Source: a virus
Virus record (IMG/VR): IMGVR_UViG_3300025652_000322
Coordinates: 1 to 30,739 of that record
Reading direction: 5' to 3' (one strand)
Length of the DNA: 30,739 nucleotides
This document shows, piece by piece, positions 1,286 to 28,958 of this stretch. The translations under genes and the position numbers were made by a program. The notes beneath the pieces were generated by a model. The model was given only the letters and a program-made list of their open reading frames with translations. It did not search any database and had not been told where the DNA came from. The number at the start of each line of letters is the position of its first letter. The stretch's first letter is position 1.

Positions 1286-2200
1286 ATGGCAATATCACGA
1301 CATCAACTCGTAAAAGAGTTAGAGCCAGGATTGAATGCACTATTCGGCCTGGAATACAAAAGGTATGATAATCAGCACGCTGAGATTTATACTAACGAAT
1401 CATCTGACAGAGCTTTTGAAGAAGAAGTAATGTTAAGTGGTTTCGGAAACGCAAGTGTAAAGAGTGAAGGTTCTGGAGTAGCATTTGATAATGCACAAGA
1501 ATCTTTCTCTGCTAGATACACTCATGAAACAGTTGCTTTAGCATTTGCTATCACTGAAGAAGCTATCGAAGACAATCTTTACGATAGAATTTCTTCTAGA
1601 TACACAAAAGCTCTAGCAAGATCTATGAGTAACACTAAACAAGTAAAAGCAGCAGCACCTTTAAATAACGGTCTACCAAGTGTAGATGGTTTTGATTCAG
1701 GTGATGGTGTTTCTTTGTTTAATACTTCTCACACAACTGTGAGCGGTACTAGCGTTAAAAACACACTTACAACACAAGCAGACTTAAACGAAACTTCATT
1801 AGAGCAAGCGATGATTGACATTGCTGGTATGACTGATGAAAGAGGTTTAAGAATTGCAGCTAAAGCAGTCAAAATGATTGTTCCATCTGCAAACCAATTC
1901 CAAGCTGAAAGACTTATGAAGTCTCAAGGTAGAGTTGGAACTGCTGATAATGATATCAATGCATTAGGATCAATGGGAATGATTCCTCAAGGTTACAGAG
2001 TGAATAATTTCTTAACTGATACTGATTCGTTTTACATTATCACTGATGTACCAAATGGTATGAAAATGTTCACTAGAGCACCATTGACAACTGCAATGGA
2101 AGGTGACTTTGATACTGGTAACGTTAGATACAAAGCTAGAGAAAGATACTCATTTGGAGTTTCTGACTTTAGAGGTATCTTCGGCGTTGAAGGTGCGTAA
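1286..2200 (+). CDS. Major capsid protein, Mu gpT-like (HK97 fold)
   Basis: A 304-residue protein matching the Mu-like major head subunit family (gpT type) in length and motif order. It starts with LEPGLNALFGLEYKRY and the acidic E-loop-like stretch DRAFEEEVMLSGFG. It continues with SFSARYTHETVALAFAITEE, EEAIEDNLYDRISSRYTKAL, and the mid-domain FNTSHTTVSG. The C-terminal half carries LNETSLEQAMIDIAGMTDER, LIVP-like KMIVPSANQFQAERLMKS, ADNDINALGSMGMIPQGY and KARERYSFGVSDFRG. It would form the icosahedral shell. A GGAG-type ribosome-binding site precedes the ATG, and a strong hairpin follows the stop codon. No separate protease domain is visible. This is the most secure functional call in the capsid module. 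Confidence 0.93.
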   Translation: MAISRHQLVKELEPGLNALFGLEYKRYDNQHAEIYTNESSDRAFEEEVMLSGFGNASVKSEGSGVAFDNAQESFSARYTHETVALAFAITEEAIEDNLYDRISSRYTKALARSMSNTKQVKAAAPLNNGLPSVDGFDSGDGVSLFNTSHTTVSGTSVKNTLTTQADLNETSLEQAMIDIAGMTDERGLRIAAKAVKMIVPSANQFQAERLMKSQGRVGTADNDINALGSMGMIPQGYRVNNFLTDTDSFYIITDVPNGMKMFTRAPLTTAMEGDFDTGNVRYKARERYSFGVSDFRGIFGVEGA

Positions 2201-2214
2201 TCAATAAAACTTTT

Positions 2215-2239
2215 TGTGGCCGGACATAGTTCGGCCACA
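2215..2239 (+). terminator. Strong hairpin after the major capsid gene
   Basis: Positions 2215-2225 pair with 2229-2239 (TGTGGCCGGAC against GTTCGGCCACA, one G-U pair, ATA loop), an 11-bp stem that is GC-rich against an AT-rich background. The T-run (2211-2215) lies before the stem rather than after it, so it is not a canonical Rho-independent terminator on either strand. It may be a 3' stability element for the abundant capsid mRNA or a partial terminator. Confidence 0.6.
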
Positions 2240-2263
2240 TTCAATAACTAATACGGTGAGAAC

Positions 2264-2521
2264 ATGAAAAAATTCCTAGTAAACATTTGGGCGTACGATC
2301 ACTATGCAAAATTTGAAGTTTTGTCAGAAGATAACGCTACTGCTCTTGAACAATCAATCCTTGACAAGTTGGGAGAAAAGAGTATAAATTGGGAATATCT
2401 TGGTATATCTTATGATAACCGAGTAAACAGAATAACCTATGAGGAGGTTATAAATGATACAAGACCTATACAAACAAAAAAGGTCCTTGGAGTTGAAGTG
2501 GGAACAGGAGCATCTGTCTAA
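2264..2521 (+). CDS. Small conserved hypothetical protein
   Basis: An 85-residue protein starting MKKFLVNIWAYDHYAKFEVL. The pattern of a short beta-strand, an alpha-helix (ATALEQSILDKLG) and a second strand resembles small alpha/beta phage proteins seen next to capsid genes. I do not recognise a function. The last 22 codons overlap the start of the next gene in a different frame. The preceding ribosome-binding sequence (GGTGAG) is weak. Translation coupling with the downstream gene is likely because that gene's GAGGAGG site lies within this coding sequence. Confidence 0.65.
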   Translation: MKKFLVNIWAYDHYAKFEVLSEDNATALEQSILDKLGEKSINWEYLGISYDNRVNRITYEEVINDTRPIQTKKVLGVEVGTGASV

Positions 2522-2663
2522 TGGTAGATACACTCTTGAAATGGTTCGGATCGATGACAAAGTCAAAGAAGTTATCACTGAAATCAAGCTTGAAGAAGCT
2601 AAAATTGCACATAGACAAAATACTGTTGAAGGTGCGGCTCCACAAGTTTCTGTAGCTACTTAA
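2454..2663 (+). CDS. Small coiled-coil-like protein
   Basis: A 69-residue, highly charged helical protein (MIQDLYKQKRSLELKWEQEH, then RIDDKVKEVITEIKLEEAKI) with heptad-like spacing of hydrophobic residues, suggesting a short coiled coil. It has one of the best ribosome-binding sites in the window (GAGGAGG, 2441-2447, 6 nt before the ATG). It overlaps the upstream gene by 68 nt in another frame. Function unknown; its position between the capsid protein and other head proteins suggests an assembly or minor virion role. Confidence 0.7.
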   Translation: MIQDLYKQKRSLELKWEQEHLSNGRYTLEMVRIDDKVKEVITEIKLEEAKIAHRQNTVEGAAPQVSVAT

Positions 2664-2706
2664 TCAAAAGCTACATTGCTGAAATGCATAAATACCTTAG
2701 GATCTC

Positions 2707-2735
2707 TTGCACTCTACTAAAAAATAACATATAAT
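2707..2735 (+). promoter_or_regulatory. Candidate sigma70-type promoter
   Basis: A perfect TATAAT (2730-2735) lies 17 nt after TTGCAC (2707-2712), which keeps only the TTG of the -35 consensus. The predicted start near 2742 would give an 85-nt leader containing the 2761-2806 hairpin and the AGGAGG site of the next gene. It is in the 164-nt gap 2664-2827, the longest non-coding stretch in the window. The region is AT-rich, so a chance TATAAT is possible. Confidence 0.45.
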
Positions 2736-2760
2736 TTTAACACTATACAAAAATAAAAAC

Positions 2761-2806
2761 TTAAATGTAGACGCGTATAGTCGACATCCCTAGGGACTAC
2801 ATTTAA
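2761..2806 (+). promoter_or_regulatory. Inverted repeat in the leader of gene 2828-3334
   Basis: TTAAATGTAG (2761-2770) and CTACATTTAA (2797-2806) are perfect 10-nt inverted arms. The enclosed 26 nt holds three short palindromes: ACGCGT (2771-2776), GTCGAC (2780-2785) and CCCTAGGG (2788-2795). An alternative stem pairs TAGTC (2778-2782) with GACTA (2795-2799). The AGGAGG ribosome-binding site follows at 2814-2819. It could be an RNA stem-loop that insulates or controls the next gene, or an operator. Confidence 0.5.
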
Positions 2807-2827
2807 AATATCTAGGAGGATATTAAT

Positions 2828-3334
2828 ATGGCAAATACAACTTTTTCAGGTCCGGTACGATCTGAAAGCACACTTAAAACTGTTAGTAAAAATGCTACTA
2901 CAGGAGCAATTACTGAAGTTATCACTATGGGTGATGCACCAGTTGCATTAGGAGATGAAGACAAAACTCTTGATAACGCAACACACAGTGGAAGAACTCT
3001 TGTAGTTCCTGCACTTGCAGCTAACAGAACAATTACATTACCGGCACCAGTTGCTGGTGCGCACTTTAAATTTATTTATGGTGGCGCCGCGGAAGAAGCA
3101 GAAAATTTAATTATAATAACACCAGGAAATACTAATTTCTTTATTGGTGGAGTTATTCATTTAGATTCAAATGCTGATAACGTATCTGTTTATTCTGATG
3201 GAAACTCTAACTCAAAACTAACTCTTACAGATTTTGGTTTATTTGAAATAAATATATTAGCTAAAGATTCTACTAACTACTATATTTGGGGTCAAGCAGA
3301 AGGCGCAGACGTGCCTGCATTTGCAGATCAATAA
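2828..3334 (+). CDS. Beta-rich structural protein (MANTTFSGPVRSE family)
   Basis: A 168-residue protein beginning MANTTFSGPVRSESTLKTVS. That N-terminus is shared by virion proteins of marine phages and cyanophages. The middle carries hydrophobic strands (RTLVVPALAANRTITLPAP, HFKFIYGG, NLIIITPG) and the C-terminus reads YYIWGQAEGADVPAFADQ. The pattern suggests a beta-sandwich head or tail surface protein. No catalytic motif or membrane segment. The start is fixed by AGGAGG eight nt upstream. It is the first gene after the promoter and hairpin at 2707-2806 and ends just before a UUCG hairpin, so it may be an abundant, separately controlled virion component. Confidence 0.8.
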   Translation: MANTTFSGPVRSESTLKTVSKNATTGAITEVITMGDAPVALGDEDKTLDNATHSGRTLVVPALAANRTITLPAPVAGAHFKFIYGGAAEEAENLIIITPGNTNFFIGGVIHLDSNADNVSVYSDGNSNSKLTLTDFGLFEINILAKDSTNYYIWGQAEGADVPAFADQ

Positions 3335-3345
3335 CATATAATTAT

Positions 3346-3365
3346 GATGGGGCTTCGGCCCCATC
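3346..3365 (+). terminator. UUCG tetraloop hairpin, terminator-like
   Basis: GATGGGGC (3346-3353) pairs perfectly with GCCCCATC (3358-3365) around TTCG, the extra-stable cUUCGg tetraloop. It follows the stop codon by 11 nt. The bases after the stem (TAGTAATCTT) are not a clean T-tract, so termination may be partial and mRNA 3'-end protection is an alternative. Confidence 0.65.
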
Positions 3366-3390
3366 TAGTAATCTTAATTAAGGAGGGATT

Positions 3391-3810
3391 ATGGCAGACA
3401 CAGTAACAGGACCAACTATCATGCAAGAAAATGATGTTAGAGTGGTTATTAAATATGTAAACCAATCAGACGGATCAGGTGGAACAACAGTATTTGGAGA
3501 TGTATCAGCAATGGCGAACAATGCAGATGGTGCTTCTTGCTTACACTTAGTTTTACAAAGAGTTTGGTATTCATCACAAGGTGGAGACGGTGGAGATTCT
3601 TACGTTCGTATGGATGAAGAAGACGATGACGGCGACATACCTATTATTGGTTTAACAGGATCTGGTTATTGGGACTTTAGAGAATTTGGTGGGTTAAAAA
3701 CTGACAAATCAAACAACACTAACCAAAGTGATGTTAACCTTGTAGTTCCTAGCACAGCAGATGCTGGTAACATGTATACGGTAATAGCAGAATTTAAAAA
3801 ATTATATTAG
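3391..3810 (+). CDS. Conserved virion structural protein
   Basis: A 139-residue protein beginning MADTVTGPTIMQENDVRVVI. The order is a beta strand (RVVIKYVNQSDGSGG), a central VSAMANNADGASCLHLVLQR, RVWYSS, an acidic loop (MDEEDDDGD) and a C-terminal YTVIAEFKKLY. This is a recurrent marine-phage structural family; I recall homologues with the same beginning, the same 'NxSDGTG' loop and an ExxKxY ending. The exact position in the virion is unknown to me. The ribosome-binding site AGGAGGG (3381-3387) is strong. No membrane or enzymatic motif. Confidence 0.8.
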   Translation: MADTVTGPTIMQENDVRVVIKYVNQSDGSGGTTVFGDVSAMANNADGASCLHLVLQRVWYSSQGGDGGDSYVRMDEEDDDGDIPIIGLTGSGYWDFREFGGLKTDKSNNTNQSDVNLVVPSTADAGNMYTVIAEFKKLY

Positions 3811-3821
3811 GAAGGTAGCAG

Positions 3822-4574
3822 ATGGCTAATACTACTTCCGGAACAGTAACGTTCGACAAAACATTCGCTGTTGATGAAATTATTGAAGAAGCATACGAAA
3901 GACTTGGCATACAAGTTAGTTCAGGTTATCAATTAAAAACAGCAAGACGATCTCTTAATATTTTATTTCAAGAATGGGGTAATAGAGGTATTCACTATTG
4001 GGAAGTAGGTGAAGCTAATATAGATATAATTGAAGGACAAGCTGAATATACTTTTTACAGAGCAAGTGGTGATGGAACAAGTTCTGTAACAAATCCAGCT
4101 GGTATTTATGGTGTTGCAGATGTTCTTGAAGCAACTTTAAGATCTAATAGAACCCAAACAACACAAACAGATTCTTCTTTAACAAAAATTTCTAGAGCAA
4201 CTTATTCTGCATTATCAAGTAAGTTATCTAAAGGAACACCAGCACAATTTTTTGTTCAAAGATTCGTGGACAAAACTACAATAACAGTTTACCCAACAGC
4301 AGATTCTTCTAATGCATCTAAAGACATACATTTTTATTATTTAAAAAGAATACAAGACGTAGATTCAACATACACAGATGCAACAGATCTTCCATACAGA
4401 TTCGTACCTTGTATGGTTTCAGGACTTGCTTTTTATTTAAGTCAAAAAGTAAATCCGCAGTTAACACAAACAATGAAGTTATTATACGAAGATGAATTAG
4501 CCAGAGCACTATCTGAAGATGGTTCTGCTGCTAGTACATACATAACTCCTAAAAACTATTACCCGAATATATAA
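3822..4574 (+). CDS. Head-tail adaptor (short-tail connector) protein
   Basis: A 250-residue protein. The N-terminal helices (FAVDEIIEEAYERLGI, QLKTARRSLNILFQEWGNRG) followed by HYWEVGEANIDI, a beta region with KISRATYSALSSKLSKGTPA and QFFVQRFVDKTTITVYPTAD, then HFYYLKRIQDV and LPYRFVPCMVSGLAFYLSQK match in order the adaptor proteins that sit below the portal in short-tailed phages (P22 gp4-type families). I rely on recalled family pattern, not a search. The gene ends in a TAATG junction with the next one, implying coupled translation with the other neck proteins. No membrane segment. Confidence 0.75.
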   Translation: MANTTSGTVTFDKTFAVDEIIEEAYERLGIQVSSGYQLKTARRSLNILFQEWGNRGIHYWEVGEANIDIIEGQAEYTFYRASGDGTSSVTNPAGIYGVADVLEATLRSNRTQTTQTDSSLTKISRATYSALSSKLSKGTPAQFFVQRFVDKTTITVYPTADSSNASKDIHFYYLKRIQDVDSTYTDATDLPYRFVPCMVSGLAFYLSQKVNPQLTQTMKLLYEDELARALSEDGSAASTYITPKNYYPNI

Positions 4575-5128
4575 TGGCAACAGGAAAATACGCAAAAGCA
4601 ATATCAGATAGATCAGGATTTGAATTTCCATATAACGAAATGGTTAGAGAATGGAATGGTTCACTTGTGCACAAATCAGAATTTGAACCTAAACATCCAC
4701 AATTAGAATTAGGCACACATGCTGCAGATCAAGAAGGTTTAATGAATGCAAGACCGGATAGAACAGAAAATTCTGTTGCAGTAATATTAAAACCAAATCC
4801 TTTTGAAACTATTGCAGCTTCATCAGGTATTATAAATGTATCAGAACCATCACACGGTAGATCAACAGGCGATACTGTAAGATTTAGAGGATCACCCTCT
4901 ACTGCAGGCACATTTGCAAACCCTGCATCATTCGATGGTATAACAGGATCAAACGTTGCAAAAGCTGCAGGATATTCTATTACCGTTGGTAAAAGAGATT
5001 CAAGTGGAAATATCACTAACACAACAGACTTCTATCACTTTACTGTAGACACAGATACTGCTACAAGTGGTAGTACATCAGGAGGAGGAGAGAATTGCTC
5101 GGCAGGTCCAGCAACTCTTAGCGCATAA
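4574..5128 (+). CDS. Conserved structural protein with FCCH-like beta domain
   Basis: A 184-residue protein. The N-terminal 70 residues carry AISDRSGFEFPYNEMVREWN, then HKSEFEPKHPQLEL and NARPDRTENS, a pattern conserved in marine phage neck or tail proteins. The remainder (SEPSHGRSTGDTVRFRGSP ... ITVGKRDSSGN ... FYHFTVDTDTATSG) resembles the small beta repeat 'aHG.s.GD.V......F' used as an inserted or C-terminal decoration in many virion proteins. The C-terminus is Gly/Ser rich with one Cys. It is joined to both neighbours by 1-nt overlaps (TAATG), so it is most likely part of the head-tail connector set. Biochemical role unknown. Confidence 0.75.
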   Translation: MATGKYAKAISDRSGFEFPYNEMVREWNGSLVHKSEFEPKHPQLELGTHAADQEGLMNARPDRTENSVAVILKPNPFETIAASSGIINVSEPSHGRSTGDTVRFRGSPSTAGTFANPASFDGITGSNVAKAAGYSITVGKRDSSGNITNTTDFYHFTVDTDTATSGSTSGGGENCSAGPATLSA

Positions 5129-5842: not shown

Positions 5843-7669
5843 ATGGCATCAACATACACAGATCTCGGTATAGAAAAAATGGCAACTGGCGAAAACGCCG
5901 GTACATGGGGAACAAAAACTAATACTAACTTAGATATTATAGAAAAAGCAATTTCTGGTTATGTAGAACAAGCAGTAACTAGTGGTGGAACAACACAGTT
6001 AACTATTACGGATGGTGATGCAACAGAATCAACATCAGTTGCAAGACATGCTGTTATAAAATTAACAGGTACAATATCAGGTAATTCTATTGTAACTGTA
6101 CCAGATTCTGTAGAAAAAGTTTATATTGTAACTAATGGCACATCGGGTGCGTACACAGTTCAATTTAAAACAGCATCAGGAACTGGTATTACTTTTGGTG
6201 TATCTGAAAAAACTACAAGATTAGTTTACTCTGATGGAACAAATCTTGTTGATGCAGGATTTGGTGGATCTCTTGATTTAGAAGGAAGAGAATTAGTTTT
6301 AGATGCTGATGGTGATACAACTATTACAGCAGATACAGATGATCAAATAGATATTAAAATTGCTGGTGCAGATGATTTTCAATTTACAGCAAATACTTTT
6401 ACAGCTCAATCTGGAAGTAGTATTGTTGTACCAGATGGTGGACTTACTTTTGGAAGCACAGCTATTACATCGACAGCAGCAGAATTAAATATTTTAGATG
6501 GTGTTACATCAACAACAGCAGAACTAAATATTTTAGATGGTGTTACATCGACAGCAGCAGAATTAAATGTACTTGACGGTATCACTGCAGTTGTTGGAGA
6601 ATTAAATGCTTTAGATATAGGTTCTACAGCAATAGGAACAGCTGTTGCAAGTAAAGCAGTTATATTAGATGCAAACAAAGATTATACAGGAATTAGAAAT
6701 TTAACTATATCAGGAGATCTTACAGTATCGGGTGATGATATTACCATGGGTACAAATACTGCAGGTAATTTATTAGTTGCAGATGGTACAAATTTTAATT
6801 CTATAGCTGTAGGATCATTATCAGAAATATCTAGCATAGCTAATGATGATGTATTTTTAGCAGTTGATACTTCAGGCGGTGGTCTTAAAAAAGTTGCAAG
6901 ATCAACTGTTGTATCAGGACTAGCTACATCCGCTGCATTAACAAATGTAGTTGAAGATAGCACACCACAGTTAGGTGGTAATCTTGATATGAATGGTGCA
7001 GATATTGTAACCACTTCAAATGCAGATTTAGAATTAGCACCTAATGGTACAGGTCATGTTACTGTTAGAGGTAATACAAATTCAGGTGCTATACAATTTA
7101 ATTGTGAATCTAATTCACATGGCCAGCAAATAAAGGCACAACCACATTCTGCAGGTGTTACAAACGTTATGTTATTACCAGATGGTGCTGATTCAACTTT
7201 AGTATCTCTTGTAGCTACACAGACTTTAACAAATAAAACTTTAACATCACCTAAAATAAATGAAGATGTAGCAGTAACTTCTACTGCAACAGAATTAAAT
7301 TTATTAGATGGTGTGACAGCAACAACTGCTGAATTAAATATTTTAGACGGAGTTACATCTACAGCAGCAGAGCTTAATATATTAGATGGAGTAACTTCAA
7401 CAGCAGCAGAGCTTAACATTTTAGACGGAGTTACATCTACAGCAGCAGAGCTTAACATTTTAGACGGAGTTACATCTACAGCCGCAGAATTAAATATTAT
7501 AGATGGTGATACATCAGCAACTGCTACAACTTTAGCAGATGCTGATAGATTAGTTACAAACGACGCTGGTACTATGAAACAAGTGGCGTTAACAGATGTT
7601 AAAACATACTTGACGAGTGCAGGATTTAGTTCGGAAGACCCGACAGCTCTTGCAATTGCGTTAGGATAG
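5843..7669 (+). CDS. Tail fibre shaft protein with 13-residue repeats
   Basis: A 608-residue protein. The first 45 residues (DLGIEKMATGENAGTWGTKT, then NTNLDIIEKAISGY) are the typical N-terminal virion-attachment pattern of marine phage tail fibres. A beta region follows (LVLDADGDTTITADTDDQID). Two repeat tracts of 13 residues, consensus TAAELNILDGVTS, lie at about residues 209-260 and 479-556. Between them is DDVFLAVDTSGGGLKKVARS. After the last repeat comes ADADRLVTNDAGTMKQV, then a short end (SSEDPTALAIALG). There is no globular C-terminal receptor domain, so this is probably an elongated trimeric shaft whose tip is supplied by other proteins, for example those at 8063-14369. The C-terminal 'DAGTMKQV' motif resembles the linker motif in the C1q fibres downstream. 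Confidence 0.85.
   Translation: MASTYTDLGIEKMATGENAGTWGTKTNTNLDIIEKAISGYVEQAVTSGGTTQLTITDGDATESTSVARHAVIKLTGTISGNSIVTVPDSVEKVYIVTNGTSGAYTVQFKTASGTGITFGVSEKTTRLVYSDGTNLVDAGFGGSLDLEGRELVLDADGDTTITADTDDQIDIKIAGADDFQFTANTFTAQSGSSIVVPDGGLTFGSTAITSTAAELNILDGVTSTTAELNILDGVTSTAAELNVLDGITAVVGELNALDIGSTAIGTAVASKAVILDANKDYTGIRNLTISGDLTVSGDDITMGTNTAGNLLVADGTNFNSIAVGSLSEISSIANDDVFLAVDTSGGGLKKVARSTVVSGLATSAALTNVVEDSTPQLGGNLDMNGADIVTTSNADLELAPNGTGHVTVRGNTNSGAIQFNCESNSHGQQIKAQPHSAGVTNVMLLPDGADSTLVSLVATQTLTNKTLTSPKINEDVAVTSTATELNLLDGVTATTAELNILDGVTSTAAELNILDGVTSTAAELNILDGVTSTAAELNILDGVTSTAAELNIIDGDTSATATTLADADRLVTNDAGTMKQVALTDVKTYLTSAGFSSEDPTALAIALG
6467..6622 (+). repeat. 39-bp tandem repeat tract 1 in the fibre gene
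   Basis: Four in-frame units starting at 6467, 6506, 6545 and 6584, each encoding a 13-residue TAAELNILDGVTS-type unit. The first three are close copies; the fourth is diverged (ITAVVGELNALDIG). They probably form a beta-helical or stalk segment. Confidence 0.85.
7277..7510 (+). repeat. 39-bp tandem repeat tract 2 in the fibre gene
   Basis: Six in-frame units starting at 7277, 7316, 7355, 7394, 7433 and 7472. The copies at 7394 and 7433 are almost identical in DNA, which points to recent unit expansion. Copy number could vary between related phages and would change fibre length by 13 residues per unit. Confidence 0.9.
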
Positions 7670-8062: not shown

Positions 8063-8956
8063 ATGGCCTATATTGGAATTCAGCCAGCAGAATCGTTTAC
8101 TTCATTCGCTACTCAAGAATTTTCTACGAGTGCTACGACCTCCTATACTCTAGATCATGCTGTAGCTAACGAAAATGAATTAGCTCTTTTTGTAAATAAC
8201 GTAAGACAACAACCTGGATCTGGTAAAGCATATACTGCGACAGGCACAGCGTTGACACTATCTGCGGCCACGGCTTCGACAGATACGATGTACTGTGTAT
8301 TTTTAGGTAGAGCATTACAAACTGTTGTACCTGCAACTAATAGTATTACAGCTGCTATGGTTGGTAATGATTTAATATCTGGTAAGGATGCACTAGCTAG
8401 TGAACCTGACGACACAGACGAATTCCTTGTCTCAGATGCAGGTACGATAAAAAGAATTGATTATTCATTGATTAAAGGTGGTGGAATTACAATGGTAGAT
8501 CAATTTAGATTAACAACAACTTTTCAAGGAGATGCAGTTCCTATTGCTTCTAATTTAGAAAGAGTTGATACAGATGGTTTTAGTCAAATAGGAACAGGAA
8601 TGACAGAAAGTTCTGGTATTTTTACTTTTCCAGCAACAGGAATATATTTAGTACAATTTAATGTTCATTTTACAACAAATGAAACAGAGGATAGTAGATA
8701 TAATAGAGCAGAAACTTATGTAACTTTAAATAATTCAAGTTATTCAGAAGCTAATTTTACAGCTACAGGACTTCCTTTAATAGATAGTTCTTTCACATCA
8801 GGAAATACACATAGTCAATGCATTATTGATGTTACAAATACATCAAACGTAAAAGTTAAATTTCATATTGATGTTCATAATTCAAATATGTACGTCTCTG
8901 GAAATACTGACAGAAATGAAACATATATGACGTTTATACGTCTAGGAGATACATAG
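8063..8956 (+). CDS. Tail fibre protein with C-terminal C1q-like domain (block A)
   Basis: A 297-residue protein. The N-terminal 95 residues (MAYIGIQPAESFTSF ... LALFVNNVRQQPGSGKAYT ... MYCVFLGRALQ) follow a common marine fibre N-terminal pattern. Then a linker with EPDDTDEFLVSDAGTIKRID leads to a C-terminal jelly-roll region from about residue 145. The signatures there are SSGIFTFPATGIYLVQFNVH, YVTLNNSSYSE, IIDVTNTSNVKVKFHI and TYMTFIRLGDT, which read as a C1q/TNF-like trimeric beta domain. Such domains often form the receptor-contacting tip. The linker DNA (8402-8490) is nearly identical to that of its paralogue at 11266. It starts 1 nt after the preceding stop and ends 1 nt before the next start. 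Confidence 0.8.
   Translation: MAYIGIQPAESFTSFATQEFSTSATTSYTLDHAVANENELALFVNNVRQQPGSGKAYTATGTALTLSAATASTDTMYCVFLGRALQTVVPATNSITAAMVGNDLISGKDALASEPDDTDEFLVSDAGTIKRIDYSLIKGGGITMVDQFRLTTTFQGDAVPIASNLERVDTDGFSQIGTGMTESSGIFTFPATGIYLVQFNVHFTTNETEDSRYNRAETYVTLNNSSYSEANFTATGLPLIDSSFTSGNTHSQCIIDVTNTSNVKVKFHIDVHNSNMYVSGNTDRNETYMTFIRLGDT
8402..8490 (+). repeat. 89-bp near-identical linker, copy 1
   Basis: Differs from 11614-11702 at only three positions by my alignment, whereas sequence on both sides diverges strongly. It encodes the linker between the N-terminal attachment region and the C1q-like domain. Confidence 0.9.
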
Positions 8957-8957
8957 A

Positions 8958-9251
8958 ATGAATAGAAATACAGGAAGACCAGATCACATAGAAGATTATT
9001 TAGTTGTGTTACATAAAGGTCAATGGTTTGGTTGGAGTGATAGCAAAAATAAAGTTTATGCTAATTTAATTATATATGATGACAGTAAATCTAAACCTAC
9101 TGAACAAGAATGTACTGATGGTTTAGCACAATTACAATCTGATTTTGATACAGTAAAAACAAATGCTGCAAATAAAAAAGCATCTGGCAAACAAAAGTTA
9201 AAAGACTTAGGTCTTGATGATGATGAGATAAAAGCATTAATAGGAGCCTAA
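8958..9251 (+). CDS. Small fibre-associated protein (block A), possible assembly factor
   Basis: A 97-residue protein. The first 60 residues (GRPDHIEDYLVVLHKGQWFG, WSDSKNKVYANLIIYD, SKPTEQECTDGLAQLQSDFD) are clearly homologous to those of the 117-residue protein at 12170. The C-terminus, however, is different: LKDLGLDDDEIKALIG, a short helical ending that recurs in phage tail-fibre accessory proteins. The size, the position immediately after a fibre gene and the exchangeable C-termini suggest a fibre-assembly chaperone. This is inference; no catalytic residues are evident. It is separated from its neighbours by 1 and 3 nt. Confidence 0.75.
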   Translation: MNRNTGRPDHIEDYLVVLHKGQWFGWSDSKNKVYANLIIYDDSKSKPTEQECTDGLAQLQSDFDTVKTNAANKKASGKQKLKDLGLDDDEIKALIGA

Positions 9252-9254
9252 CCC

Positions 9255-9902
9255 ATGGCACTCTCTAAGGTCAACTTTAATAGCATGAATGTAACGCCTT
9301 CAGCAAGCAAGGCGATTAAGTTTAATTCAAGCAACAATGGTTTAGAGACAGGGGATATTGGTGGTAATTTAGTATTACTAGCTACACAAACAGCTAGTTC
9401 TAGTGCTACTTTAAGTTTTACAAGTGGTATAGATTCTACTTATAAAGAATATATTTTTAAGTTTATTAACTGCCATCCAGCAAATAATGATGTAAATTTT
9501 CAATTTAATTTAAGTATAGATGGTGGTTCTAACTATAATGTTACTAAAACAACCACTAGATTTACAGCATTACATAGTGAATCTGATGACAACCATCAAA
9601 CACTTGCTTATGAAGCAAATAGAGATATGGCACAAAGCACAGTAGATAAAATTCTTTTGAATGGAGTAGGTAATGGTAGTGATGAAAGTTGTTCTGGAGT
9701 ATTACATCTATTTAATCCATCATCAACCACATTTGTAAAACATTTTATTGCAAGAGCTGTAGAAAATAGATCAGATGATACAGCAGAAGATGCTTATGGT
9801 GCAGGATATGCCAACACAACTTCTGCTGTAAATGCTATTGTATTTAAATTTGGAAGTGGCAACATAGACAGTGGAACAATTAAAATGTATGGAGTATTAT
9901 AG
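9255..9902 (+). CDS. Putative receptor-binding tip protein A1
   Basis: A 215-residue member of a six-gene paralogous family in this window. The N-terminus is the block A type (MALSKVNFNSMNVTPSASK, KFNSSNNGLET). The C-terminal beta domain holds TASSSATLSFTSGIDSTYKE, YIFKFINCHP, GGSNYNVTKTTTRF, HLFNPSSTTFVKHFIARA, GYANTTSAVNAIVFKF and the ending GNIDSGTIKMYGV. Its early C-terminal segment and its ending match protein B1 (12527) best. Similar 'HLFNPSSTT...GTIKLYGI' domains are recurrent in marine phage fibre genes; I infer receptor or glycan binding. The gene ends in TAGTG, overlapping the next start by 1 nt. Confidence 0.8.
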   Translation: MALSKVNFNSMNVTPSASKAIKFNSSNNGLETGDIGGNLVLLATQTASSSATLSFTSGIDSTYKEYIFKFINCHPANNDVNFQFNLSIDGGSNYNVTKTTTRFTALHSESDDNHQTLAYEANRDMAQSTVDKILLNGVGNGSDESCSGVLHLFNPSSTTFVKHFIARAVENRSDDTAEDAYGAGYANTTSAVNAIVFKFGSGNIDSGTIKMYGVL

Positions 9903-10576
9903 TGGCCCTTACAAAATTTAATTATAATAGTTTTGATCTAACAACTGCAGCTAGCAAAGGTCTTGCATTTAATTCTAGTGCTAATGGTTTTGAAACTGCT
10001 GCTGAAGGTAGCATGACTTTAATTAAAACTTTGACTGCTAGTTCTGATAGTACATTATCTTTTGTAGATGGGGCATCTTCTGTTGTATTAGATAATACCT
10101 ATCCTGTTTATGTCTTTAAGTTTATTAATATTCATCCAAGTGCAGTAGCTCAATTTTCATTTCAAGGAAATGCTGCTGGGGGTAGTGGATATAATGAAAC
10201 TATAACGTCAGCATCTTTTCAAAGTTTTCATAGAGAAGATGATAGTTCAACATCTTTAAATTATAGAACAGGAGATGACCAAGGACAAGGTACAGGTTTT
10301 CAAGTGCTAACAAATAATGTAGGGGACGATGCAGATCAATCTTGTTCTGGTACTTTACATTTATTTAATCCTTCAAACACAACTTTTGTTAAACATTTTT
10401 TATCAAGAGTACAAGTTTATCGTTCTACAGGCTCAAGTGCAGAAGCATCATCTGTTGAAGGTTTTACTCATGGATATTTTAACACAACATCAGCTATTGA
10501 CGAAATACAATTTAAAATGTCTAGTGGCAACATAGATAGTGGCACTATAAAACTCTATGGAATAAAGGATAGTTAA
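9902..10576 (+). CDS. Putative receptor-binding tip protein A2 (GTG start)
   Basis: A 224-residue paralogue of the tip family. It starts with GTG, sharing its G with the upstream stop (TAGTG), so translation is probably coupled. The N-terminus is block A type (LTKFNYNSFDLTTAASK, LAFNSSANGFET). The C-terminal domain holds LIKTLTASSDSTLSFVDG, VVLDNTYPVYVFKFINIHPS, HLFNPSNTTFVKHFLSR, GYFNTTSAIDEIQFKM and the ending GTIKLYGIKDS. The 'TYPVY' strand and the 'KDS' ending match the second protein of block B (13135) rather than its immediate neighbours. Receptor-binding role inferred. Confidence 0.8.
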   Translation: MALTKFNYNSFDLTTAASKGLAFNSSANGFETAAEGSMTLIKTLTASSDSTLSFVDGASSVVLDNTYPVYVFKFINIHPSAVAQFSFQGNAAGGSGYNETITSASFQSFHREDDSSTSLNYRTGDDQGQGTGFQVLTNNVGDDADQSCSGTLHLFNPSNTTFVKHFLSRVQVYRSTGSSAEASSVEGFTHGYFNTTSAIDEIQFKMSSGNIDSGTIKLYGIKDS

Positions 10577-11235
10577 TGGCACTTAATAAATTAAAATTTA
10601 ATAGTTTAAATGTAACACCAACAGCAGGTAAGACAGTTGGATTTAACTCTAGTGCTGATGGATTAGAGGCTACACTTAGTGGTGGTGCTATAACGTTTAT
10701 TAAAAAACTTACTGCTAGTTCAAGTTCTACTTTATCTTTTGTTGATGGATCTAGTGATGTCGTTTTAGATTCTACCTATAAAGAATATTTATTTATATTT
10801 CATGATATTCATCACTCAGAAGCTGATAGAAATTTCGCTTTTAATCTTAGCACCGACAGTGGTAGTAATTATAATGTTGCTAAAACTACTACGCATTTTA
10901 GAACATATTCATATGAAGATGGTGGTGGTAATACTTTAGAGTATCGTACAGGAACTGACTTAGCACAGGGAACTGGAGTACAATCTCTACTTCAAGGTAT
11001 CAGAGGTGATAATGATTCATCCGGTGCTGGTTATATGCATTTGTTTAATCCTTCATCAACTACATTTGTAAAACATTTTATAGCTGTGGGAACTTACATG
11101 CAGGACAATGTTTTATGCGAAACTTTTTACACAGCAGGATATGGTAATACCACGTCTGCTGTAGACGCTGTACAGTTTTCAGTAAACTCAGGCAACATAG
11201 ATGCAGGAACAATAACCTTGTATGGAATAAATTAA
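10576..11235 (+). CDS. Putative receptor-binding tip protein A3
   Basis: A 219-residue paralogue. The block A N-terminus (LNKLKFNSLNVTPTAGK, GFNSSADGLEA) leads to FIKKLTASSSSTLSFVDGSS, DSTYKEYLFIFHDIHH, DSGSNYNVAKTTTHF, HLFNPSSTTFVKHFIA, GYGNTTSAVDAVQF and GNIDAGTITLYGIN. The FIKKLTASSSS and TYKEYLF segments match the third gene of block B (13755), but the GSNYNV(A/T)KTTTHF segment is closest to the second gene of block B, which indicates a mosaic. It has a 1-nt overlap with the upstream gene (TAATG). A 30-nt gap with AAAAGGAGA then leads to block B. Confidence 0.8.
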   Translation: MALNKLKFNSLNVTPTAGKTVGFNSSADGLEATLSGGAITFIKKLTASSSSTLSFVDGSSDVVLDSTYKEYLFIFHDIHHSEADRNFAFNLSTDSGSNYNVAKTTTHFRTYSYEDGGGNTLEYRTGTDLAQGTGVQSLLQGIRGDNDSSGAGYMHLFNPSSTTFVKHFIAVGTYMQDNVLCETFYTAGYGNTTSAVDAVQFSVNSGNIDAGTITLYGIN

Positions 11236-11265
11236 TATGATAGATAAGCAAAAAGGAGAACAGCC

Positions 11266-12168
11266 GTGTATATAGGAAAAACACCCACAGTAGGAAACTT
11301 TCAAGTCTGTGATGCGATATCAGTCGTAAATGGGCAGGCAGCCTATACCCTACAAGTAGGGGGCACAAATGTCGCACCAGAATCAGCTAACCATATGTTG
11401 GTCAGTTTAAATGGTATCCTACAAAAACCAGGATCATCCTTTACAATCTCAGGTAGTACGATGACGTTCGCCTCGAATCTGGCGACAGGGGATGTTATCG
11501 ACTTCGTTCAAATATTAGGTAACGTGCTTGACATCGGCCAGCCGTCTGACGACACTGTGACCGCTGCTAAACTTAATAATGATATTATTTCAGGGCAGAC
11601 AGCTTTAACAGCTGAGCCTGACGATACAGACGAATTCCTTGTTTCAGATGCAGGTACGATAAAAAGAATTGATTATTCATTGATTAAAGGTGGTGGAATT
11701 ACTCAAGCTCAACAATGGCGAATTACATCTAGTTTTAGTTTCTCAAGTGTTCAAGACATAGACACAAATTGGGAAATAAGCGATTCAACAGGGTATGGTT
11801 CTATTGGAAGTAATTTAACACAATCAAGTGGTATTTTTACTTTTCCAAGTACAGGATATTATTTGATAATGGCAACTTATCAATTTCGGAGAGCAACAGG
11901 CGACAGAGGAATTGGTGGAAATATAATGGTTACCACAAACAATTCTAGTTATACAAATGTATCATCAGTAGAGGTAAACAACTCAGATATTGGAGGTGAT
12001 GACAACACTACTTTTGCTGGAAGTCACCAAACCATAATAGATGTTACAGATACCTCAAATGTAAAATTTAAACTTACTATTCAGACATCTGGTAGCACTC
12101 AAACTTGCGATGGTAATACGGATAGAAACTACACTGGTTTTATTTGTGTGAGATTAGGAGATACATAA
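11266..12168 (+). CDS. Tail fibre protein with C-terminal C1q-like domain (block B, GTG start)
   Basis: A 300-residue paralogue of the gene at 8063. It starts with GTG after AAAAGGAGA. The N-terminus (MYIGKTPTVGNFQVCDAIS, LVSLNGILQKPGSSFTISG, FVQILGNVLD) has the same layout as block A but is diverged. The linker EPDDTDEFLVSDAGTIKRID is identical in protein. The C-terminal C1q-like region (SSGIFTFPSTGYYLIMATYQ, GNIMVTTNNSSYTN, IIDVTDTSNVKFKLTI, GFICVRLGDT) aligns along its length with block A. The two would be alternative or co-assembled fibre proteins. It ends one nt before the small accessory gene, exactly as in block A. Confidence 0.8.
   Translation: MYIGKTPTVGNFQVCDAISVVNGQAAYTLQVGGTNVAPESANHMLVSLNGILQKPGSSFTISGSTMTFASNLATGDVIDFVQILGNVLDIGQPSDDTVTAAKLNNDIISGQTALTAEPDDTDEFLVSDAGTIKRIDYSLIKGGGITQAQQWRITSSFSFSSVQDIDTNWEISDSTGYGSIGSNLTQSSGIFTFPSTGYYLIMATYQFRRATGDRGIGGNIMVTTNNSSYTNVSSVEVNNSDIGGDDNTTFAGSHQTIIDVTDTSNVKFKLTIQTSGSTQTCDGNTDRNYTGFICVRLGDT
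11614..11702 (+). repeat. 89-bp near-identical linker, copy 2
   Basis: Partner of 8402-8490 with three mismatches. It is much more conserved than the flanking coding sequence. Confidence 0.9.
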
Positions 12169-12169
12169 A

Positions 12170-12523
12170 ATGATATATGATAATAATGGCAGACCAAATC
12201 ACATAGAAGCATATTTAATAACTGTTAGAAATGGTCAATGGTTTGGTTGGACAGATAGTAAAAATAAAACATATGCAAATTTAATCGTGCACGATGGTGG
12301 ATCTAAACCTAGTGAAGCTGATTGTACAAATGGTTTAAAGGCATTGCAAGATGCTTGGGATACTAAAAATGCAACTTATAAATTAAATAGAGCTAAAAGT
12401 TATAAGTCAATAAAAGATCAATTAGATTTATTATACCATGATATGACAGCAAGCAAAGGTGACAGCACTGGAGAGTGGTATAAACATATTAAAGCAGTTA
12501 AAGATGCTAACCCTAAAGGATAA
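12170..12523 (+). CDS. Small fibre-associated protein (block B), possible assembly factor
   Basis: A 117-residue protein homologous over its first 60 residues to the one at 8958: GRPNHIEAYLITVRNGQWFG, WTDSKNKTYANLIVHDGG, SKPSEADCTNGLKALQDAW. It ends instead in YKSIKDQLDLLYHDMTASKG followed by STGEWYKHIKAVKDANPKG. That ending is a recurrent C-terminal helical module of phage tail-fibre accessory proteins ('DQLDLLYHDM...WYxxIKAVKDANP'). The C-terminal exchange relative to block A looks like domain shuffling. A chaperone-like role in fibre assembly is inferred. Spacing to neighbours (1 and 3 nt) equals that in block A. Confidence 0.75.
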   Translation: MIYDNNGRPNHIEAYLITVRNGQWFGWTDSKNKTYANLIVHDGGSKPSEADCTNGLKALQDAWDTKNATYKLNRAKSYKSIKDQLDLLYHDMTASKGDSTGEWYKHIKAVKDANPKG

Positions 12524-12526
12524 CTT

Positions 12527-13135
12527 ATGTCAATCAATGTATGCAATGACAGATCCATGGCATCCATTACCAGTCTCCCTTCAGGGGTCTCTGGTAGTAG
12601 CTTAGTATTATTATCTACACAAACTGCATCAAGTTCATCTACAATAGATTTTACTTCAGATATAGACAGCACATACAAAGAATATATTTTTAAGTTTATA
12701 AGTATTCATCAATCTAATGACGGAGCTGATTTTCAATTTCAAGTAGATACAGGAACTAATACATCTTATAATCAAACTATTACCTCTATGGGTTTTTTAT
12801 CTTATCATCAAGAAGATGATAGTGCTGCTGCTTTAAATGCTCACAGTGGAACAGCAATTTTACACCAAGAAACAGGTTTTCAAGATTTAGGAAGATCCTT
12901 AGGAAATGATAATGATCAATCTTTAAGTGGAGAATTACATCTATTTGAACCAAGTAGCACAACTTTTGTAAAACATTTTATGGGAGTTATAAACGAAGCT
13001 GCAAGTGATAATGGAACTAATCAAAGATTTGTTGCTGGTTATGTAAATACAACAACAGCTATAACTAGAATTAGATTTAAAGCAGATGCTGGCACTATAG
13101 ATGCTGGAACAATTAAAATGTACGGAGTTGTGTAA
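12527..13135 (+). CDS. Putative receptor-binding tip protein B1
   Basis: A 202-residue paralogue of the tip family with the block B N-terminus (MSINVCNDRSMASITSLPSG), a 'NDRS...ISxLP' motif seen at the start of other phage fibre proteins. The domain then reads STQTASSSSTIDFTSDIDST, YKEYIFKFISIHQS, HLFEPSSTTFVKHFMG, GYVNTTTAITRIRFKA and DAGTIKMYGVV. The LLxTQTASSS and YKEYIFKF segments and the MYGV ending match A1 (9255). A carbohydrate- or protein-binding tip role is inferred. It ends in TAATG, overlapping the next start. Confidence 0.8.
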   Translation: MSINVCNDRSMASITSLPSGVSGSSLVLLSTQTASSSSTIDFTSDIDSTYKEYIFKFISIHQSNDGADFQFQVDTGTNTSYNQTITSMGFLSYHQEDDSAAALNAHSGTAILHQETGFQDLGRSLGNDNDQSLSGELHLFEPSSTTFVKHFMGVINEAASDNGTNQRFVAGYVNTTTAITRIRFKADAGTIDAGTIKMYGVV

Positions 13136-13755
13136 TGTCAATTGTAACTTATAACAACAGAAGCATTGCAAATATTTCAGCTATACCTGGGGCAGCTAAA
13201 TCATTAACACATATTAAAACTTTAACTGCTAGTTCAAGTTCTACTTTGTCTTTTGTTAATGGTAGCAGTGATGTAGTGCTGGATAGCACCTATCCTATAT
13301 ATCGTTTTGAGTTTATAAATATTCATACAAGTCAAGATAATACTCAATTTCAATTTAACTGTAGTTCTGATAGTGGTAGCAATTATAATGTTACTAAAAC
13401 TACCACACATTTTTATGCATATCACAATGAGGGTGGTTCAGATCCAGCATTAACTTATGCTGGTGGTTCTGATTTAGCACAATCAACATCAGCACAACCT
13501 TTGGGAATTGGATTAGGAACAGACAACGATCAAAATCTTAGTGGAGAAATGTTTTTGTATTCACCATCATCTACGACTTTTGTAAAACATTTTATAGCAA
13601 GAACAAATAATTATATGTACCATGAATATACATTAGATTCATATTCTGGTGGATATATGAATACTTCTTCAGTAGTAAATGCAGTTCAGTTTTCTATGAA
13701 TAGTGGCAATATAGACTCTGGTACAATAAAACTATATGGAATAAAGGATTCATAA
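13135..13755 (+). CDS. Putative receptor-binding tip protein B2
   Basis: A 206-residue paralogue with the block B N-terminus (MSIVTYNNRSIANISAIPG). The domain holds HIKTLTASSSSTLSFVNG, DSTYPIYRFEFINIHTS, DSGSNYNVTKTTTHF, SPSSTTFVKHFIART, GYMNTSSVVNAVQFSM and GTIKLYGIKDS. The TYPIY strand and KDS ending match A2 (9902), while the DSGSNYNV segment is nearly identical to that in A3 (10576). This is direct evidence of a mosaic history. It has a 1-nt TAATG overlap on both sides, so B1, B2 and B3 are probably translated in a coupled manner at similar amounts. Confidence 0.8.
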   Translation: MSIVTYNNRSIANISAIPGAAKSLTHIKTLTASSSSTLSFVNGSSDVVLDSTYPIYRFEFINIHTSQDNTQFQFNCSSDSGSNYNVTKTTTHFYAYHNEGGSDPALTYAGGSDLAQSTSAQPLGIGLGTDNDQNLSGEMFLYSPSSTTFVKHFIARTNNYMYHEYTLDSYSGGYMNTSSVVNAVQFSMNSGNIDSGTIKLYGIKDS

Positions 13756-14369
13756 TGAGCATAGTTACACTTAATGATAGAGCAGTTAGATCGGTATCAG
13801 CCTTTGGATCTATACACACTGGATCAATGGTGTTTATTAAAAAGTTGACTGCTAGTTCTAGTTCTACTTTAAGTTTTGTTAATGGTAGTTCTGATGTAGT
13901 GTTGGATTCTACTTATAAAGAATATTTATTTACATTTAAAGATATTCATCCACAAAATGATGGAAGACATTTTAGAATTGGTTTTAGAGATGGTGGTACA
14001 GACTATGATGCTACTACAACAACAAGTTATTTTAATGGTTATCATGAGGAGGGAGATGGAACAGCAGCTCTTCAATATGAAGCTGCCATAGATCAAGCAC
14101 AAAGCACAGATCCCGTTAAACTAAATGGAGCAGTTGGTTATGACAACGATGAGTGTCTTGGTGGATATTTACGTTTATTTAATCCAAGTTCTACAACTTT
14201 TGTAAAACATTTTATATCTGAAATATCATCTACACACGATGCTCCAGCTGCTAATCATTGTTTTGCTGCTGGATATTGTAATGTAACTGCAGCAATTGAT
14301 GCAGTGCAGTTTACCATGAATACAGGCAACATAGACGCTGGAGATATTTGCCTTTACGGAATTCTATAA
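13755..14369 (+). CDS. Putative receptor-binding tip protein B3
   Basis: A 204-residue paralogue. The block B N-terminus (MSIVTLNDRAVRSVSAFGS) leads to FIKKLTASSSSTLSFVNGSS, DSTYKEYLFTFKDIHP, a diverged middle (RDGGTDYDATTTTSYF), LFNPSSTTFVKHFISE, GYCNVTAAIDAVQFTM and GNIDAGDICLYGIL. The FIKKLTASS and TYKEYLF segments match A3 (10576), the third protein of block A. It contains three cysteines in its last 60 residues or so, unlike its paralogues. It is followed by 30 nt and a strong AAAGGAGA site for the chaperone-like gene. Confidence 0.8.
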   Translation: MSIVTLNDRAVRSVSAFGSIHTGSMVFIKKLTASSSSTLSFVNGSSDVVLDSTYKEYLFTFKDIHPQNDGRHFRIGFRDGGTDYDATTTTSYFNGYHEEGDGTAALQYEAAIDQAQSTDPVKLNGAVGYDNDECLGGYLRLFNPSSTTFVKHFISEISSTHDAPAANHCFAAGYCNVTAAIDAVQFTMNTGNIDAGDICLYGIL

Positions 14370-14399: not shown

Positions 14400-14699
14400 A
14401 TGCCAAGATATCATAATATAAACGGTAACAAAGTACAATTTACAGCAGCTGAAGAGACAGCTAGAGACAATGAAGAAGCGGCTTGGGCTAACGCAGCTCC
14501 TGCTAGAGCTTTAGCGGATCTAAGATCTAAGAGAGATCGTCTTTTAACAGCATCTGATTGGGAAATTACATCGGAACTTGAAAAAGGGAATGCTATATCA
14601 TCTGATATGAAAACCTACAGACAAGCTCTTAGAGATTTACCTGATGGTAAAGATACTGTTGAAAAATGTGAAAACGCTACATGGCCAACTAAACCGTAG
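14400..14699 (+). CDS. Tail assembly chaperone-like protein
   Basis: A 99-residue protein. After a short N-terminus (MPRYHNINGNKVQFTAAEE) and an Ala-rich helix, the module LADLRSKRDRLLTASDW, then MKTYRQALRDLPDGKD, matches the short C-terminal domain of phage tail assembly chaperones ('LRxxRdxlLxxsDW...YRqaLRdlP'). In this phage it follows the two fibre cassettes directly, fitting a role in folding or attaching fibre subunits. It is not homologous in its N-terminus to the small proteins at 8958 and 12170, but it occupies the same kind of slot. Good AAAGGAGA ribosome-binding site. Confidence 0.75.
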   Translation: MPRYHNINGNKVQFTAAEETARDNEEAAWANAAPARALADLRSKRDRLLTASDWEITSELEKGNAISSDMKTYRQALRDLPDGKDTVEKCENATWPTKP

Positions 14700-28907: not shown

Positions 28908-28925
28908 AGTTTTTCTTCTTTCTAG

Positions 28926-28958
28926 TTGACAAAATAACATTTATAACTATATTGTCAA
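28926..28958. promoter_or_regulatory. Mirror-symmetric divergent promoter region
   Basis: Plus strand: TTGACA (28926-28931), 16-nt spacer, TATATT (28948-28953). Minus strand: TTGACA (28958-28953), 16-nt spacer, TATTTT (28936-28931). The arms TTGACAA (28926-28932) and TTGTCAA (28952-28958) are inverted repeats separated by 19 nt, so each -35 overlaps the other strand's -10. The plus start would fall within a few bases of the ATG at 28962, which has no Shine-Dalgarno sequence. The minus start near 28924 leaves a short leader before the helicase ATG. Confidence 0.6.

Follow-up and report, generated by a model that had tools for sequence, protein, structure and literature searches.

The DNA analysed here, referred to as the window, is the whole 30,739-base sequence of a single IMG/VR virus record (IMGVR_UViG_3300025652_000322). 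Its region 8063-14369 carries two consecutive five-gene blocks, A and B (Table 1), each consisting of a fibre gene, a gene for a small accessory protein and three paralogous genes for proteins called tips, which probably form one heterotrimeric receptor-binding head per block. The junctions were alike in both blocks: a 1-nt gap, a 3-nt gap and two 1-nt stop/start overlaps (TAGTG or TAATG). The gene order and spacings reported in the initial annotation of this DNA were exact to the base, and all of the motifs quoted there were present in the tips.

Table 1. Features of the two five-gene blocks and of the gene that follows block B.
Feature	Position	Strand	Evidence or remark
Fibre A: N-terminal fibre domain type fA, linker, C1q/TNF-like head (residues ~141-297)	8063..8956	+	AlphaFold, fold comparison
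Stretch of fibre A identical to fibre B, 57 nt, encoding the fibre-to-head linker	8432..8488	+	Exact run ending at 8488
Block A small accessory protein, 97 aa	8958..9251	+	51% identical to block B counterpart
Tip A1, class alpha, N-terminus type A	9255..9902	+	PHROG 14820, E 4e-73
Tip A2, class beta, N-terminus type A, GTG start overlapping A1 stop (TAGTG)	9902..10576	+	PHROG 14820, E 8e-75
Tip A3, class gamma, N-terminus type A, TAATG overlap	10576..11235	+	PHROG 14820, E 2e-74; AlphaFold-modelled
Fibre B: N-terminal domain type fB, linker as in fibre A, C1q-like head, GTG start	11266..12168	+	PHROG 18673 tail fibre, E 3e-53
Block B small accessory protein, 117 aa	12170..12523	+	
Tip B1, class alpha, N-terminus type B	12527..13135	+	PHROG 14820, E 3e-66
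Tip B2, class beta, N-terminus type B	13135..13755	+	Tip alignment profile
Tip B3, class gamma, N-terminus type B	13755..14369	+	Tip alignment profile
Probable tail fibre assembly protein, after block B	14400..14699	+	PHROG 4912 tail fiber assembly, E 1.9e-18

The six tips could be aligned along their length, with identities to A1 of 45-53%. The matches of A1, A2, A3 and B1 to PHROG 14820, whose function is unknown, spanned profile positions 1-22 to 205-206, and B2 and B3 matched the tip alignment profile along the whole of that profile. Pfam gave only sub-threshold matches. Recent gene conversion between the A and B tips of the window was considered and rejected, as the longest exact A/B runs did not exceed 23 nt. 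Among the relatives, the 1-nt stop/start overlap was found at 316 of 514 within-triplet junctions, which is consistent with coupled translation. The accessory protein of block A had no match in PHROG; a chaperone or adaptor role may be suggested for the accessory proteins. A B triplet identical to that of the window, with a B fibre of equal score, was present in locus L349 (positions 2707-4546; IMGVR 3300025645_000662).

Relatives were collected in eight viral-contig scans, and the best 80 of the several hundred relatives reported by each scan were kept, which yielded approximately 530 loci; the tip family is therefore much larger than this sample. Tip genes were found by profile hidden Markov models (HMMs) and then grouped into arrays. 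An array was regarded as bounded when all of its genes were complete and the sequence extended at least 300 nt beyond it on each side, as was the case for 241 of 379 non-redundant arrays. Three tips were found in 225 of these bounded arrays and six in the other 16, with no other number, and this result was stable at flank cut-offs from 300 to 1000 nt. Tip-like open reading frames (ORFs) below the threshold beside bounded arrays were fibre-like in 21 of 23 cases, and the other two were doubtful. The search for versions with one, two or three blocks, proposed in the initial annotation, was successful for all three: the cultured phages HTVC010P, HTVC019P and HTVC034P carry a single B-type set annotated as hypothetical proteins, A and B sets co-occur in 19 contigs besides the window, and nine tips, i.e., three sets (A, C and B), were found in two loci, L006 and L072.

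According to the initial annotation, the tips of a block share their N-terminus and the C-terminal domains (C-domains) match by position across blocks. Separate trees of the two regions were built for the 120 proteins of 20 contigs in which both blocks are present, the first 26 residues being used for the N-terminal tree. The N-terminal tree contained 1 block change (shuffled mean 37.3) and 4 class changes (shuffled 53.8). The C-domain tree contained 12 class/position changes (shuffled mean 56.5, minimum 48) and 29 block changes (shuffled mean 40.5, minimum 33), the latter value meaning that a weak block signal remains in the C-domains. Both parts of the claim held: the N-termini of the three tips of a block resembled one another more closely than those of different blocks, the C-domains grouped by position and not by block, and the reverse groupings did not appear. 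N-terminal similarity was 0.52-0.79 for the same gene, 0.21-0.66 for other positions of the block and 0.05-0.23 across blocks; the N-termini are position-specific besides being block-specific. The mean between-contig identity of C-domains was 0.541 for A1-A1, 0.544 for A1-B1 and 0.550 for B1-B1, and at the other two positions the identities within and between blocks were approximately alike too.

At least five N-terminal types were distinguished, namely A (MALxKxxFNS), B (NNNS/NDR), C (MxxYxxIKYD), D (MxxISNGTTIxD) and E (MGxIxRxxxN), and in nearly every set one type was common to all three tips. HMMs built from the A and B positions (classes alpha, beta and gamma) were applied to the other types. 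The class order was gamma-beta-alpha in type C (best permutation in 11/11), beta-alpha-gamma in type D (34/35) and beta-alpha-gamma in type E (26/29, where individual class assignments were weak and the best permutation alone was clear); the derived relations held in 9/11 for D-to-C and in 26/29 for D-to-E (chance 1/6), all of these counts being non-independent because sets within one N-terminal type have common ancestry. Judged by these profiles, each N-terminal type keeps one tip per class despite the changed order. Because types C, D and E permute the same classes, the C-domain marks the chain class and not the gene position, as nearest-neighbour tests showed too, and the simpler equation of C-terminus with gene position was rejected. 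The earlier claim that the C-terminus sets the place of a subunit within the tip fits a heterotrimer, provided that the place is understood as chain class.

An AlphaFold model of tip A3 showed a beta-sandwich from residue 37 onwards (mean predicted local distance difference test score, pLDDT, 84.7). Foldseek comparison of this model with the PDB revealed no clear relative; the VIA Z values of 6-8 with galectins and levanase domains, obtained with many sandwich proteins, lie in the range of common sandwich arrangements. Sequence searches of solved structures with the tip and fibre alignments gave no useful match. The columns that separated the classes were few (41-45, 56, 57, 64, 69, 70, 72, 74, 76, 153, 155, 158, 212, 214, 218 and 219 in A3 numbering, used throughout). 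They alternated along three strands (70/72/74/76, 153/155 and 212/214/218) and did not alternate on strand 39-47. Alternating class residues are expected to lie on one sheet face, as predicted from strand parity.

Covariation between chains was studied with the pairing shuffled within each N-terminal type. Among 90,828 inter-chain pairs, alpha70-beta74 ranked first. The forward values were 0.27 for alpha70-beta74, 0.12 for beta70-gamma74 and 0.06 for gamma70-alpha74, and the values for the reverse direction were 0.006, 0.004 and 0.026. When training was performed on type B, the 70>74 pair was at the top in the held-out types as well, where same-chain 70-74 signals were weaker than those between chains; most of the other top pairs were not replicated. 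Under permutation within clusters of similar sets, z was 9-15 for alpha70-beta74, 10-16 for beta70-gamma74 and below 2 for the reverse direction; gamma-alpha covariation was not directional in this test, and beta70-beta74 within the same chain covaried too (z 9-13). Residues 42-57/64 of beta and gamma covaried strongly, which was not taken as contact, since it probably reflects an exchanged linked sequence variant.

To count independent changes, a tree of 249 sets was used, with pairs taken on separate branches. Acidic alpha70 went with basic beta74 in 15.4 independent pairs and against it in 0.2 (median p 6e-5), and a basic residue at alpha69 was set against a basic residue at beta72 (10.8 vs 0.4, p 0.002). 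Similarly, Ile at beta70 was associated with Cys at gamma214 (12.9 vs 0.2, p 2e-4) and with Thr at gamma74 (12.0 vs 0.6, p 0.002). The same-chain (alpha70-alpha74), wrong-direction and wrong-partner controls of this test were not significant.

The residues that would meet in a ring of the order alpha, beta, gamma were compatible in the same 249 triplets. On the alpha70>beta74 side, charges were opposite in 125 triplets and like in 6; the beta70>gamma74 side was nonpolar on both partners in 242; and on the gamma70>alpha74 side charges were opposite in 214 and like in 2. In contrast, homotypic contacts of beta and gamma, as well as most of the reverse ring, would place nonpolar against charged residues. 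The A set of the window was matched at all three sides (E-K, V-I and E-K). On the alpha-beta side of its B set, as read from the identical L349 triplet, E70 faces E74, with R72 adjacent.

Taken together, these results make it probable that each block codes for one head, an obligate heterotrimer of alpha, beta and gamma whose N-terminal adaptors are specific to the set. Several lines of evidence give the heterotrimer good support; a 1:1:1 stoichiometry, docking through the N-termini and receptor binding are inferred. The position-specific C-domains would be well explained by the formation of a heterotrimer. The product of a block would be a receptor-binding appendage of two modules, a fibre protein (probably a homotrimer) and a separate head made of one copy of each of the three paralogous tips. 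With the ring order alpha, beta, gamma, such a head would be a pseudo-threefold heterotrimer, which a threefold-symmetric fibre could accommodate. The C-domain, from approximately residue 37, would bear the class residues of the ring interface (70/74 with their neighbours and the strands at approximately 41-45, 153-155 and 212-219) and also a variable surface that presumably binds the host, and the first 15-35 residues would act as an adaptor by which each set is matched to the fibre or tail partner that belongs to it. With two blocks, a virion would carry two different heterotrimeric heads.

Several observations weigh against the heterotrimer. Acidic gamma70 with Lys at alpha74 was represented by four independent changes only, of which 3.6 agreed (p 0.125); residue 70 of gamma hardly varies. 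In a cruder sister-pair test, alpha70-beta74 gave p 0.13; this test was too weak and was replaced by the tree-based independent pairs. The directional test of the top 20 pairs also gave p 0.13 in the held-out data. The tip-like domains borne by some fibres, which are presumed homotrimers, had no self-matching residues at 70/74. Finally, a flank cut-off of 250 nt admitted two exceptions to the counts of three or six, L062 (positions 2053-4601, four tips) and L122 (five tips). Both are contigs of 4-5 kb with flanks of 252-292 nt and a mixture of E-type and B-type N-termini, which suggests recombinants or chimeric assemblies. A single-tip case, L096, appeared at cut-offs of 150-200 nt and lies 220 nt from the contig end.

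Factors linking a tip set to its fibre were studied by co-occurrence. Among the sets with enough upstream sequence, the nearest fibre of B sets was of B type in 89 of 90. An A-type fibre was nearest in 13 of 19 A sets, five had the order fA fB tA tB, and in one no A-type fibre was detected, so that an A fibre stood somewhere upstream in 18 of 19. D sets and approximately half of E sets were preceded by other proteins. The initial claim that the N-terminus decides which fibre a subunit joins was thus supported by co-occurrence, not by structure. From the same co-occurrence it can be suggested that the tip N-terminus docks the set to its own fibre. On the opposite side, A-type fibres without A tips were found in L217, L248, L257 and HTVC019P, which means that A tips are accompanied by an A fibre and the converse is not always true; C-type sets share one B-type fibre with the B set; both fibres can precede both tip sets, as in the five cases above; and AlphaFold confidence was low for the N-terminal 36 residues (block means of pLDDT 52-63).

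The identity between fibres A and B was 44%, and their linker was invariant. In fibre A, residues 141-297 were predicted with pLDDT above 90 over most of their length and had a jelly-roll C1q/TNF fold (VIA Z 14-15.4, with RANKL, EDA and C1QL structures); Pfam TNF and C1q matches of the fibre were below the cut-off. On account of this predicted fold, the fibre is likely trimeric, probably a homotrimer. Around the identical linker run, most 60-nt windows of the two fibre genes were 40-63% identical, and the run is probably a recombination seam used in head swapping. In L145 (positions 2827-3684), a B-type fibre N-terminus was combined with nearly the same C1q-like head as that of fibre A of the window, a comparison indicating that heads have been exchanged between fibres with fA and fB N-termini. 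In 52 non-redundant cases, a tip-like domain (score 50-130), presumed to be homotrimeric, replaced the C1q-like head of the fibre; these include L015, L024, L036, L041, L043, L054 and L080. The fibre before the C and B sets of L006 and L072 was short, with an ORF of 209 aa compared with the usual ~300 aa.

Alternatively, the alpha-beta-gamma complex, still a heterotrimer, could attach to the tail or another virion protein and not to the fibre of its block, the fibre and the head being separate appendages that travel together. The exchange of heads between fA and fB N-termini in L145 and the window, with the tips staying in their block, is in agreement with this alternative, as are the A-type fibres without A tips and the fA fB tA tB orders. 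However, the N-terminal type of the tips tracks the fibre type in B and A sets, as counted above, and the proteins upstream of D and E sets are mostly others. Separate attachment is a possible but rather doubtful variant, differing from docking on the own fibre in this point only.

It is improbable that each tip gene forms its own homotrimer and that a virion mixes three heads on identical fibres, with a broader host range. Known phage tail-fibre tips are usually homotrimers, some fibres end in their own copy of the C-terminal domain, presumably homotrimeric, and alpha chains alone would match at 70/74 (127 of 249 triplets). However, 70/74 would be nonpolar against charged in 201 of 249 beta-beta and 241 of 249 gamma-gamma contacts, the covariation was mainly inter-chain, directional and phylogenetically independent, and homotrimers explain neither the number three nor the retention of one tip per class. 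The pattern of one gene per trimeric tip, of the T7 gp17 and T4 gp37 kind, does not agree with tips in threes, class residues and matched contacts. Neutral descent, in which a three-gene cassette was duplicated as a block and recombination kept the C-domains in step as orthologues with no heterotrimer, is very improbable: it would yield the same gene order, position-matched C-domains and one, two or three sets among relatives, and recombination is evident at the fibre linker, but it leaves unexplained the strict multiples of three over 241 arrays, one tip per class under permuted order, A and B C-domains as alike between as within blocks and inter-chain co-changes on independent branches.

Beyond the window, we incline slightly towards extending the obligate heterotrimer to a general kit of asymmetric heads in marine phages, including cultured SAR11 phages. 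In this kit, C-domains would be freely exchanged between phages within a class, interchangeable N-terminal adaptors would fit the heads onto several unrelated fibres, and sets would be doubled or tripled to give two or three distinct heads per virion.

The closest precedent, similar in its working and different in protein family, is the heterotrimeric tail of the virophage DSLV2. Its tripartite tail was shown to co-purify as a heterotrimer and to bind cyanobacterial cells through lipopolysaccharide (Chu et al. 2025; PMC12724248). As in the phage tips, there are three consecutive paralogous genes for proteins of approximately 200 aa, those in the same position being more alike across viruses than within one (PMC12724248). 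Three paralogous tail genes always occurring together, as in DSLV2, were also found here, with all 241 of 241 arrays holding threes or sixes. The DSLV2 proteins differ in carrying the phage collar domain PF07484 and in resembling the T4 gp37 tip (PMC12724248); no PF07484 match at E <= 1 was found in A1, A2, A3 or B1. The sections consulted describe no exchangeable N-terminal adaptor sets, permuted class order or double sets (PMC12724248). The initial annotation knew of no described phage system with this exact arrangement. The arrangement is not unique to the window phage, considering the single sets of HTVC010P, HTVC019P and HTVC034P, the 19 contigs with A and B sets, the nine tips of L006 and L072 and the comparable DSLV2 heterotrimer.

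In the three cultured phages, the same tip family forms a three-gene set downstream of a B-type fibre, as in the window; they differ in having one B-type set, and the triplet was unremarked in the records or papers found. No published description of tip triplets was found in the literature. C1q-domain proteins and tail fibres, but not the triplets, are named in a paper on the host-recognition islands of pelagiphages, and in the structure paper on cyanophage A-1(L) a heterotrimer occurs only in the baseplate wedge, not in fibres.

Vertebrate C1q is a heterotrimer of A, B and C chains. Heterotrimers of homologous chains also occur elsewhere in the C1q/TNF superfamily, e.g., lymphotoxin LTa1b2 (PDB 4mxw), and the phage fibre head has this fold. 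In the phage, however, the putative heterotrimer is formed by the tips, whose beta-sandwich has no clear PDB match.

Phage receptor-binding proteins commonly combine a conserved N-terminal anchor with an exchangeable C-terminal receptor-binding part. In contrast to this usual modularity, the anchor described here is found on three chains that differ from one another, and their C-terminal part bears the chain-class identity as well.

Some of the most abundant viruses of the ocean are pelagiphages, e.g., HTVC010P. If the heterotrimer is correct, their receptor-binding head would be named and shown to be asymmetric, and an annotation rule would be obtained for hundreds of genomes: tips come in threes, the N-terminus indicates the appendage and the C-domain indicates the place in the ring. 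With an asymmetric head, three different binding sites can be displayed simultaneously and one of them could evolve with the others held, which bears on how SAR11 phages track changes of the host surface. The class residues and co-varying pairs make the heterotrimer prediction directly testable.

The remaining part of the window was also inspected. Genes for head and tail proteins, an endolysin and a helicase were present, and no tRNA genes were found in the window. The helicase gene (27477-28940; PHROG 62, E 3e-124) is on the minus strand, unlike the other genes examined, which are plus-strand genes. A 608-aa virion protein with many TSTAAELNILDGV repeats is encoded at 5843-7669. Judged by short DNA matches, the closest annotated relatives of the window are pelagiphages, HTVC035P and HTVC034P around the blocks and HTVC027P and HTVC023P elsewhere. 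A scan of bacterial genomes yielded no more than four tip loci, which were located in Pelagibacter assemblies (single-cell or metagenome) and in two other metagenome-assembled genomes. L540 and L541, tip relatives from metagenome bins labelled Roseovarius and Campylobacteraceae, may be phage contigs binned together with bacteria.

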